A stretch of 64,000 nt of DNA. It comes from Paenarthrobacter sp. A20 (GTDB lineage: Bacteria > Actinomycetota > Actinomycetes > Actinomycetales > Micrococcaceae). The stretch lies in the NCBI RefSeq assembly GCF_024168825.1, contig NZ_JALJWH010000001.1, positions 1,302,001 to 1,366,000 on the forward strand, written 5' to 3'. The stretch's first letter is position 1; the number at the start of each line of letters is the position of its first letter. The position numbers and the translations under genes are program-made. The notes below the pieces were generated by a model. It did not search any database. It was not told the origin of the DNA and was given only the letters and a program-made list of their open reading frames with translations. Below are positions 51,060 to 53,519 of the stretch, in pieces.

Positions 51060-51320
51060 ATGTCCAATCCAGAGCAGGATCCAAGCGAGCAGGAAGGGCC
51101 GGCAGACGGCGGTGCGGCCGGAGTCCCTGGCGCCCACGACGGCGGCGCGGATGGTGGTGCCGACGGCGGCGCGGATGGTGGTGCTGAAGGGCCGGCAGAC
51201 GGCGGTGCGGATGGTGGTGCTGAAGGGCCGGCAGACGGCGGTGCGGCTGGAGTCCCTGGCACCCACGATGGTGGCGCCGACGGTGGCGCGGATAGTGGCG
51301 CCGAAAGACCAGGCAGCTAG
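51060..51320 (+). CDS. DGGA-repeat peptide, candidate modified-peptide precursor
   Basis: An 86-residue acidic, low-complexity protein. ATG 51060 has a strong GGGAGGAAAC RBS. Residues 1-11 form a short acidic leader (MSNPEQDPSEQ). The rest is built of DGGA units (ten plus one DSGA) with spacers AEGP and AAGVPG. A 24-residue block with GVPG followed by A or T and HDGGADGG occurs twice (12-35 and 56-79). No Cys or aromatic residues, and two His, each followed by Asp. Its stop lies three bases before the oxygenase start. Function not known; a RiPP-like precursor or a repeat-scaffold substrate is inferred. Confidence 0.7.
   Translation: MSNPEQDPSEQEGPADGGAAGVPGAHDGGADGGADGGADGGAEGPADGGADGGAEGPADGGAAGVPGTHDGGADGGADSGAERPGS
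51093..51296 (+). repeat. Internal duplication inside the DGGA peptide gene
   Basis: Two 72-base copies (51093-51164 and 51225-51296) encode the same 24-residue block except one residue (Ala versus Thr). The first 26 bases are identical; the rest differs mainly at third codon positions. A shorter DGGADGGAEGPA unit separates them. The pattern indicates repeat expansion under protein-level constraint. Confidence 0.75.
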
Positions 51321-51323
51321 GTT

Positions 51324-52535
51324 TTGAGTTCCACCAGCACTGATTTCCAGGACCCCGGAGCTGTCAAGGATGCCGGGGTCCTGGAAACGCGCCTGATCGA
51401 CATCGGCTATGAGAGGTTCGCCCGCGACGTCTGGGGGCGGACCGCGTTGCTCACGCGTGGTGTCAGTGACTTCTCTGATTTGTTCTCGGCCAACGCCGTC
51501 GACGAACTGGTCTCGCGCCGCGGATTGCGGACACCTTTCCTGCGCGTCGCCAAGGGGGGCTCGACACTTCCAGAGTCCTCATTCACTTCCCCGGCGGGCG
51601 TCGGGGCCACCATCTCCGACCAGCTCGACGACACCGAACTTTGGCGCAAATTCGCCGACGGAGCCACCCTTGTCCTGCAGGCGCTGCATCGTACATGGGA
51701 GCCGGTATCGAGCTTCAGCACCCAGCTAAGCACCGAGCTGGGACATCCAGTGCAGGCCAATGCCTACATCACCCCGCCCCAGAACCGTGGTTTCGACGAT
51801 CACTACGACATCCACGACGTCTTCGTCCTGCAAATCGAGGGCACCAAGCGCTGGATCATCCATGAGCCAGTCCATGTGGACCCGCTGCGCAGCCAGCCTT
51901 GGACCGATCGCCGTTCCGCCGTCGCCGAGGCCGCTCAGGGCAAGGCCTACATCGATACGGTCCTCGAGCCCGGTGACGTCCTCTACCTGCCGCGTGGATG
52001 GTTGCACGCCGCAGAGGCCCAGGGCAAGGTCTCGATCCATCTCACACTGGGAGTCCATAACTGGACCCGCTACGCGCTGGCCGAGCAGCTCGCCCAGGCC
52101 GCATTGGCGGCTCTCAACGACGATCCCGAGATGCGCCGGTCCCTGCCATTGGGCGTCGATGGACCCGATGGGGACATCGCCGCCGTCCGTAAACGTCTCG
52201 CCGAGGCAGTCGTCGAGGCTGATTCCGCTTCCCTTTTCCACCGCACCCGGAGGGGACAGGGACGCCCGTCTCCGCTTGGTCCCGTCGCCCAGCTCGCGGC
52301 TGTCGAGGGCCTCGGCCCCGAGTCGCTGGTGCGGCTTCGGGATGCCTTGGAGGCCAGGCTCGAGGGCTCACGCCTGACGACCCGCGTGGGTTGGCTCGAC
52401 TTTGCCGAGGCAAATCTGTTGACTGTAAGGCGCCTGCTCGACGGCGGGGATCACCTCGCGGCCGATCTCGGCATTGAACTCGTCGAAAGGCTGTTACGCG
52501 CAGGCGTTCTCGTCCCAGCTGAACAGTCGCATTGA
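51324..52535 (+). CDS. JmjC/cupin-type 2-oxoglutarate-dependent oxygenase (ROX-like)
   Basis: A 403-residue protein of the JmjC ribosomal-oxygenase-like family. Fe(II) ligands are visible: His160 and Asp162 in DDHYDIHDVF, and His228 in YLPRGWLHAAEA. The rest fits the family: VQANAYITPPQNRGF, FVLQIEGTKRW before, and a C-terminal helical/winged region. Known members hydroxylate Arg, His or Asp/Asn in proteins. TTG start at 51324, three bases after the peptide gene, implies coupling and a dedicated substrate. Its stop lies inside the first 18-base tandem repeat. Confidence 0.87.
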   Translation: MSSTSTDFQDPGAVKDAGVLETRLIDIGYERFARDVWGRTALLTRGVSDFSDLFSANAVDELVSRRGLRTPFLRVAKGGSTLPESSFTSPAGVGATISDQLDDTELWRKFADGATLVLQALHRTWEPVSSFSTQLSTELGHPVQANAYITPPQNRGFDDHYDIHDVFVLQIEGTKRWIIHEPVHVDPLRSQPWTDRRSAVAEAAQGKAYIDTVLEPGDVLYLPRGWLHAAEAQGKVSIHLTLGVHNWTRYALAEQLAQAALAALNDDPEMRRSLPLGVDGPDGDIAAVRKRLAEAVVEADSASLFHRTRRGQGRPSPLGPVAQLAAVEGLGPESLVRLRDALEARLEGSRLTTRVGWLDFAEANLLTVRRLLDGGDHLAADLGIELVERLLRAGVLVPAEQSH

Positions 52536-52610
52536 GTTGAACAGTCGCATTGAGTTGAACAGTCACGTTGAGCTGAACAGTGACCTTGAGCTGAACAGCG
52601 ACGGTGGACA
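52521..52610. repeat. Five tandem 18-base repeats between oxygenase and Suc_Fer genes
   Basis: Units begin GAACAG and run 52521-52538, 52539-52556, 52557-52574, 52575-52592 and 52593-52610. The first two are identical and later ones diverge progressively. The oxygenase stop codon TGA is within unit 1, and the Suc_Fer GTG follows unit 5 immediately. Each unit is a multiple of three. Confidence 0.9.
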
Positions 52611-53519
52611 GTGACGACCCCGGTGGCCGCAACAGGACGTTTCTTCTGCGCGGACAGCGCCCGGATACGCGGCGACTCGATGGCGGGCACGGCGTCACCA
52701 GGCGTGGTTTGGGTCCTCATAGAGCACCGGGGTGGGTGGCCATCCACCGGCTTCGACGGCCTTGAGCTGGAGGCTGGGACCAAGGCCCTGGTGTTGGCGG
52801 CGGCGCGGACGGCGCGAGCACGGGTTCTCCTGGTCCGGCGGCCTGGCCCCCGCCAGAGCCGCGGTCCGAGCCGTTGGGCCGTGCTGCGCCATCAAAGTAC
52901 CGGCGCCTATCAACAACTCTGGGGAACGTGGGCTCGGGATGGGGACCTTGCCGATATTGTTCCAGCACTGGCGTCACCTGGAATGCCCGGTTACCCGCCG
53001 GTCATCCTGGTCTGTGCGCATGGTCGGCATGATCCTTGTTGCGCAGTGCGGGGCCTGCCCGTGGGGCGTGCGCTCGGTGAGCGGTGGCCGGAGCAGGTAT
53101 GGGAGTGCTCCCACATTGGGGGTGACAGGTTCGCAGCCAACGTCGTCGTCGCTCCGGACGGTGTGTACTACGGCGGACTCGATGCGAAGTCCGCCGTCGC
53201 TACCGTTGAGGATCATCTCGCAGGCCTCATCCACGCAGAATTCCTTCGGGGGTATACGGATCTATCCCCACCGCAACAAGCTGCTGTCGTGGCCGTGCTC
53301 GACCGCTTCGGTCCTGCCGGCCGGAATGACTTTCTGGTCACTGAGTCCTTGCGCGAGGGCGACTATTGGCACCTCCATGTCACTGGCCGCCCACCCCACC
53401 CGGCAATGATCGAGGTGGAGCTGCGAGCCCGCCGCGAACCGGCGACCCAGTTGACGTGCCGGGCCCCGGCGGCACGCTCGGCCACCGTCTACGAACCCAT
53501 CTCCATCCGCAGCTCCTGA
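52611..53519 (+). CDS. Sucrase/ferredoxin-like (Suc_Fer) family protein
   Basis: A 302-residue thioredoxin-fold, ferredoxin-like protein. The conserved Cys/His cluster reads CAHGRHDPCCAVRG, followed by WECSHIGGDRFAANVVV; the N-terminus has the early Cys (RFFCADSARIRGDSMAGTA). These residues could hold an Fe-S cluster in a redox role. GTG start at 52611 directly after the tandem repeats. Third gene of the peptide/oxygenase cluster; could serve as reductant or maturation partner (inferred). Confidence 0.87.
   Translation: MTTPVAATGRFFCADSARIRGDSMAGTASPGVVWVLIEHRGGWPSTGFDGLELEAGTKALVLAAARTARARVLLVRRPGPRQSRGPSRWAVLRHQSTGAYQQLWGTWARDGDLADIVPALASPGMPGYPPVILVCAHGRHDPCCAVRGLPVGRALGERWPEQVWECSHIGGDRFAANVVVAPDGVYYGGLDAKSAVATVEDHLAGLIHAEFLRGYTDLSPPQQAAVVAVLDRFGPAGRNDFLVTESLREGDYWHLHVTGRPPHPAMIEVELRARREPATQLTCRAPAARSATVYEPISIRSS

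Follow-up and report, generated by a model that had tools for sequence, protein, structure and literature searches.

In a His, Asn or Asp side chain, the beta carbon is the position that JmjC enzymes hydroxylate. Among the described systems that come closest to the locus presented here, NO66 hydroxylates His at the beta carbon, with Arg297 and Asn376 holding the substrate Asn and Tyr328 and Ser421 holding the target His (PMC4556315). BipG and PbsQ, the JmjC or cupin-like enzymes of biphenomycin, hydroxylate ornithine in an encoded precursor peptide (PMC12707348, PMC12257519), while PesHI of nitrilobacillin, a member of the MNIO family, carries out Asp beta-hydroxylation in a ribosomally synthesized and post-translationally modified peptide (RiPP; PMC13060819). 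Yeast Aim32 carries the bis-histidinyl ligand motif CX8CXnHX3H (PMC8482512). According to these sources, JmjC tailoring of encoded peptides and Asp beta-hydroxylation in RiPPs, the latter by another enzyme family, are each already known. The locus in question lies in 64,000 nt of Paenarthrobacter sp. A20 (contig NZ_JALJWH010000001.1; hereafter the window, meaning this whole stretch, whose numbering is used for all positions), where an Asp-Gly-Gly-Ala (DGGA) repeat peptide is encoded immediately in front of a JmjC oxygenase, with a gene for a Suc_Fer-like protein behind. We found that the peptide-JmjC gene unit is real, widespread and apparently undescribed. Its three genes are as follows.

51060..51320, + strand: DGGA repeat peptide of 86 aa, candidate substrate (ATG start, TAG stop; from the frame call, the unit analysis and the upstream frames of related loci)
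51324..52535, + strand: JmjC 2-oxoglutarate/Fe(II) oxygenase of 403 aa with a predicted NO66-like fold (TTG start; from PF08007, sequence and fold matches in PDB and alignments)
52611..53519, + strand: Suc_Fer-like protein of 302 aa with a predicted thioredoxin-like ferredoxin core (from PF06999, an alignment of 31 proteins, the fold search and its position downstream in related loci)

The survey behind this finding covers 192 loci, 182 of them distinct by a 140-residue stretch of the enzyme; when L024, L025 and L176-L195 are set aside, 160 distinct loci remain, the window included. One locus, L165, was classed in a group with other Asp-rich peptides, a weak match (L023) was left out, and the weaker loci L169-L175 and L176-L195 were hand-picked from the weaker matches of a class-wide survey. 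An Asp-rich frame lies upstream of the oxygenase gene at 154 of the 160 loci (150 by script; L020, L133, L147 and L152 by reading), and the six exceptions comprise two loci short of upstream DNA (L021 and L069) and four with distant enzymes and no such frame (L169-L172). The original prediction had proposed to check whether a small frame rich in Asp, Gly and Ala always lies just upstream of JmjC homologues; its refuting case, oxygenases mostly lacking a repeat peptide next to them, did not occur among close relatives. Because a loose Asp-rich criterion was also passed by 39 of 408 control frames, the criterion to trust is that of the repeat, an upstream frame with at least three D[GSA][GS][AT] units, which was found at 137 of the 160 distinct JmjC loci and in none of the 408 controls (other open frames of at least 250 aa on both strands of the window and of the loci of 80 relatives, some of which are surely not genes). 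On the latter result a chance upstream frame in GC-rich DNA was rejected. A short degenerate DNA pattern, present in 196 of 394 genomes, was too loose and is not used as evidence.

Peptide and oxygenase are also inherited together. Of the 99 genomes searched, comprising the window's own plus those of 98 relatives, 22 gave an oxygenase match, and the window peptide was matched in 15 of the 99, every time at an oxygenase locus. Within the genus, strong oxygenase matches occur in 9 of 60 genomes, and the peptide is present in all nine and in none of the 51 others, which include a genome with one weak match (G055, E 9.4e-4) counted as lacking the JmjC gene. Outside the genus, six oxygenase-bearing genomes (G061, G073, G080, G090, G091 and G092) gave no match to the window peptide at 1e-5; on reading, five of the six have an Asp-rich or acidic upstream frame (L022, L020, L017, L018 and L015), and at the sixth locus, L021, there are only 142 bases upstream. 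Among named genomes at least 571 relatives were confirmed, of which the best 80 were taken as named loci. Their hosts include Arthrobacter, Paenarthrobacter, Pseudarthrobacter, Kocuria, Streptomyces, Brevibacterium, Brachybacterium, Leucobacter, Nakamurella and Rhodococcus, and a DGGA-type frame lies immediately upstream in 79 of these best 80 (cut by the contig end in L028 and L054), the remaining locus, L069, having 40 bases of upstream DNA only. A class-wide draw of 394 genomes yielded a JmjC relative at E <= 0.001 in 134 and at E <= 1e-90 in 64, and all 64 strong-match genomes have a small acidic upstream frame on reading: 58 are of DGGA type, four are otherwise Asp-rich (L022, L165, L166 and L167) and two are acidic without a repeat (L119 and L128).

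At 39 of the 75 named loci with distinct enzymes the stop codon of the peptide and the start codon of the oxygenase overlap by 4 bases (TTGA in 38, GTGA in one), apparently a sign of coupled translation, and the TTG start in the window may be a relic of that arrangement. As is characteristic of RiPPs, a small precursor-like gene and a modifying enzyme are conserved here as a pair. The idea of a dedicated pair is strongly supported by comparative genomics, through both the 154 of 160 loci and the distribution in the genus, and we regard it as likely that the oxygenase is an enzyme devoted to the peptide as its substrate.

The peptide itself was recovered as first described, with 86 residues, ten DGGA units and three bases between it and the JmjC frame (its TAG stop is followed by GTT), and with two His-Asp sites (H26-D27 and H69-D70); to the ten units we add one DSGA. 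Directly 5' of the ATG lies GGGAGGAAAC, with GGGAGG preceding the frame, and the peptide opens with the short start MSNPEQDPSEQEGP, after which the repeat region follows. The 11 units are encoded by 7 distinct 12-mers, and two units differ on average by 0.18 bases at the first codon position, by 0 at the second and by 2.29 at the third. Since the differences are nearly confined to the third position, it is the protein repeat that has been kept and not the DNA alone; these differences, and the maintenance of the protein repeat across genera, rule out a spurious frame or a repeat at the DNA level. In 20,000 shuffles of the residues no more than 4 units ever arose. Among 23 listed Arthrobacter-type peptides the start PEQ(D/E)P...EGPAD is conserved with 10 to 30 units behind it, other clades have a start of the L-x-DDD-I/M-x-T type, and up to 31 copies of the unit occur among DGG peptides. 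The repeat count thus differs between relatives whose unit and start are conserved. A median of 72.6% of the residues are Asp, Gly, Ala or Ser (150 peptides). No Pfam or NCBIfam model matched the window peptide, and none of NCBIfam matched nine related peptides of several types at E <= 1. A secreted peptide was rejected, as the window peptide has no hydrophobic stretch; the sole relative above threshold, L128, has a doubtful choice of start.

The oxygenase scores 99.4 bits against PF08007 (JmjC_2; curated cut-off 22). Alignment bore out the complete Fe(II) triad that had been read from its sequence: H160, D162 and H228 are intact along with Lys175, and in the 144 distinct enzymes of the DGGA class H160, D162 and K175 are all invariant and H228 is present in 143 (one alignment gap). 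The HxD...H triad and the 2-oxoglutarate Lys sit, by alignment and fold model, in a double-stranded beta-helix, as in JmjC enzymes. By sequence and by the fold of the predicted model (pLDDT 80.5, pTM 0.71), the closest protein is human NO66, then MINA53, YcfD and Bacillus YxbC. The Foldseek match to NO66 (4e4h) has an E value of 2.1e-23 and a TM score of 0.69 on the query over 450 alignment columns; being near full-length, it fits a layout of JmjC, dimerisation and winged-helix domains, as judged from the whole fold and not per domain. The substrate contacts of NO66 are only partly retained, with Arg297 aligned to Val117, Ser421 to Gly243, Tyr328 kept as Tyr148 and Asn376 falling where the sequences align poorly. 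All 144 DGGA-class and all 9 other Asp-peptide enzymes have Arg69 and Arg123, which occur in 3 and 9, respectively, of 27 enzymes of other branches; Gln119 is similar (144 of 144, 8 of 9 and 3 of 27). These three residues might bind aspartate. Placing the DGGA label on a tree of the 182 distinct JmjC proteins takes 4 changes, whereas shuffles give 33.2; the trees were built quickly, contain several long branches and carry several hand-set labels, and only the clustering of labels is used.

We lean, with some reserve, towards the following reading of the three-gene unit: a dedicated oxygenase-peptide pair in which Asp beta-hydroxylation is most likely and Suc_Fer assists. In Actinomycetes, a small unit resembling an operon would give rise, by ribosomal synthesis, to a cytosolic Asp-Gly-Gly-Ala repeat peptide with no fixed structure. 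Encoded by the next and apparently translationally coupled gene, the JmjC oxygenase would bind the short start of the peptide together with the first unit and, using Fe(II), O2 and 2-oxoglutarate, would hydroxylate the repeat, most likely at Asp beta carbons and possibly at His in HDGG. Suc_Fer, probably a thioredoxin-like iron-sulfur protein, would assist dispensably through the supply of iron or electrons. The result would be a hydroxyaspartate polymer retained in the cell, and we would guess at a metal-binding or protective role.

Several points weigh against this reading, in which the hydroxylation of the peptide is itself a proposal from gene-level comparison. An Asp-rich upstream frame is missing at L169-L172, whose JmjC enzymes are distant, and most of the weaker matches of the 394-genome survey stand outside the locus set. 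In two genomes of one genus, L015 (the same as L119) and L128, the oxygenase accompanies an acidic non-repeat peptide and there is no Suc_Fer. The oxygenase is itself acidic (isoelectric point 5.4), which does not speak for an acidic substrate. Val117 and Gly243 are common in other JmjC branches too (22 and 21 of 27), so that they would speak against a NO66-like specificity without marking an Asp class, and the placing of Arg69 and Arg123 in the active site is that of candidates only. The peptides that were counted had been picked for their Asp content, which makes the presence of Asp in all of them partly circular. Finally, a scan of the locus for promoter and terminator patterns found none.

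The first alternative is that the peptide is a partner of the oxygenase, be it an acidic disordered regulator, a chaperone or a decoy (for instance a sink filling the active site, or an inhibitor), and that the enzyme has some other protein as its target. The constant adjacency and the overlap of stop and start would suit any obligate partner, and the range of 10 to 30 units among the Arthrobacter-type relatives is what one would expect of a flexible protein. However, it is hard to see why a regulator would need as many as 31 copies of a unit whose first and second codon positions are, in the window, nearly frozen. Enzyme subclass also tracks peptide subclass on the tree, although a partner would show the same. 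We consider this alternative rather unlikely.

A second alternative accepts the peptide as the substrate and concerns the residue. Asp is the residue common to the candidate substrates, since the DGGA repeats, the repeats of other kinds and the tails of the peptides of other branches all carry it. Given the selection for Asp noted above, the argument rests on the strong-match survey, with its acidic upstream frame in 64 of 64 genomes. Our best guess, which we hold to be fairly probable, is that Asp would be the modified residue, its beta-hydroxylation being the simplest reading. Modification at His in HDGG, or at Pro, Gly or Ala, or an oxidation that goes beyond hydroxylation, appears unlikely. 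It is true that NO66 and MINA53 hydroxylate His, that the DGG peptides contain 350 instances of His directly before Asp (a set in which some genomes are counted twice), and that Gly and Ala are as constant as Asp within the DGGA class. Yet 16 of 150 peptides contain no His, which makes it unlikely as the sole target and leaves the idea of His as a main target unsupported, and the repeats DADSTDAD (L022), DADQGDSDST (L166) and DSDGTD (L175), which lack the DGGA unit, have chiefly Asp in common with the DGGA class.

That the enzyme is an ordinary ribosomal oxygenase of NO66/YcfD type, acting on a ribosomal protein with the peptide as a bystander, is highly improbable, for although NO66 is its nearest relative in sequence and fold and some databases name it NO66 or L16 Arg81 hydroxylase, a patchy presence in 9 of 60 genomes of the genus suits a ribosome modifier poorly, Arg297 and Ser421 of NO66 are replaced, and in the genus the peptide is always found with the enzyme and never without it.

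The third gene had been correctly recognised as Suc_Fer, with 59.8 bits to PF06999 (curated cut-off 34.9). It follows the oxygenase on the same strand in all of the best 80 named loci, the offset between the end of the oxygenase match and the start of its own being -3 to +133 bases. Among the 182 distinct loci it lies downstream in 134 of 144 of the DGGA class, in 7 of 9 with other Asp-rich peptides, in both loci without upstream DNA and in none of the 27 of other JmjC branches, one of which has less than 700 bases downstream. Ten DGGA loci lack it; L016 has too little DNA and the other nine are real misses. As these nine and the two acidic non-repeat loci do without it, Suc_Fer is not indispensable, and it marks the unit as a frequent yet dispensable partner. 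In the 31 aligned proteins C13, C135, C143, C144, H168, G170, G171, D172 and C283 are invariant. No PDB entry matches the predicted model (pLDDT 90.1) at E <= 0.001; thioredoxin-like [2Fe-2S] ferredoxins account for all seven top fold matches (Aquifex 1f37 first; E 0.0066 to 0.069, probability 1.00), and Suc_Fer is probably an iron-sulfur protein with a thioredoxin-like fold. 2-Oxoglutarate oxygenases do not depend on an external electron donor. The idea that Suc_Fer supplies electrons was not supported, given the nine DGGA loci that lack it despite having enough DNA.

Between the JmjC and Suc_Fer genes one further feature was found, which covers the end of the former and the gap before the latter.

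52517..52598, + strand: 18-base tandem repeat, 4.6 copies

Within flanks of up to 3.5 kb, and for the top 40 clusters, no neighbour besides Suc_Fer and frames internal to the unit's own genes occurs in more than 7 of the best 80 loci, and the loci that share such a neighbour are close relatives. No widely shared protease or exporter is found near the unit in the same 80 loci and flanks, though such genes could sit elsewhere in the genome; a RiPP in the strict sense is accordingly unsupported. A larger cluster, with GNAT and O-methyltransferase genes upstream and a spermidine-synthase-like gene downstream, was rejected, since no more than 6 or 7 of the 80 loci have these genes, each of them in Arthrobacter or Paenarthrobacter. 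A defence system was likewise rejected, with 0 PADLOC families for the three proteins at E <= 0.01.

A few loci outside the DGGA class deserve mention. The peptides of L015 (= L119) and L128 have a common C-terminal motif, DDPELxGADLxEDQ. JmjC genes of other branches, belonging to several families, lie behind short peptides, without Suc_Fer, at L173, L174, L178-L180, L182-L184, L188-L190, L193 and L194; these peptides have in common a core of the kind VAVExLAxVxDR or AARxRAE, followed by a tail that is for the most part rich in Asp (GRSDGND or SDSDGSDG), and may be further classes of substrate. In genome G091 two more JmjC genes (L024 and L025) have no repeat peptide upstream and a gene for a small protein downstream, which we take to resemble leader proteins of the NHLP/Nif11 type. 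At L170, upstream of a distant JmjC gene, lies a frame of 45 residues with DPDPSDDCWIVCNPNYCY at its end, which looks like a Cys-containing precursor peptide.

The three-gene unit recurs across soil actinobacteria, Streptomyces included, hidden under the names 'cupin', 'NO66', 'hypothetical' and 'BatC'. If our reading is true, it would offer a simple two-protein route to peptides bearing at least ten hydroxyaspartates, which would be a novel kind of modified polymer inside the cell that may bind metals; it would also give a bacterial role to a group of NO66-type enzymes now named after enzymes that modify ribosomes. More speculatively, and we regard this as possible if doubtful, the product could represent a new class of encoded biopolymer in many actinobacteria, a cytosolic poly-(beta-hydroxyaspartyl-Gly-Gly-Ala) peptide that one dedicated JmjC enzyme makes and an iron-sulfur protein handles. 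It would bind a metal, iron or calcium for example, or signal oxygen and 2-oxoglutarate through its degree of hydroxylation, and the GRSDGND and SDSDGSDG branches would be further substrate classes of one large, so far unrecognised Asp-hydroxylation family.

The original prediction knew of no RiPP class with this combination. Among the titles and abstract openings listed by our searches of the open-licence literature, subscription papers being outside its scope, none described a peptide-JmjC-Suc_Fer unit, and no family model fits the peptide. Two relatives of the peptide, P0130 and P0138, carry the database label 'BatC protein', for which we found no basis, nor any paper that joins this name with Streptomyces in the open-licence literature searched; only the name is shared, and the label carries no function. 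Suc_Fer resembles the Apd1-Aim32 proteins in being Suc_Fer-like in Pfam and in having thioredoxin-like [2Fe-2S] ferredoxins as its best fold matches (none at E 0.001). It differs from the Aim32 motif in having C135-x7-C143,C144 ... H168-IGGD, where Asp172 replaces the second His, so that CX8CXnHX3H is absent, and C13 and C283 are invariant as well in the group of the window. PesHI yields beta-hydroxyaspartate, the residue proposed for the window peptide, but it belongs to an unrelated enzyme family and acts at a single site beside other tailoring enzymes. BipG and PbsQ are, as proposed for the window unit, JmjC or cupin-like hydroxylases working on an encoded peptide; however, their target is a single ornithine, and their cluster includes an MNIO, a radical SAM enzyme, an arginase, a protease and a transporter, whereas the window unit has no such set and would act on a long Asp repeat. 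NO66 (RIOX1), with MINA53 and YcfD, shares with the window enzyme the same fold over nearly the whole length and the same residues for Fe and 2-oxoglutarate (PF08007), and NO66 too admits a glycine-led stretch to its groove (PMC4556315). In contrast, the window unit has Val117 and Gly243, a patchy distribution in its genus, and a repeat peptide and Suc_Fer gene of its own.

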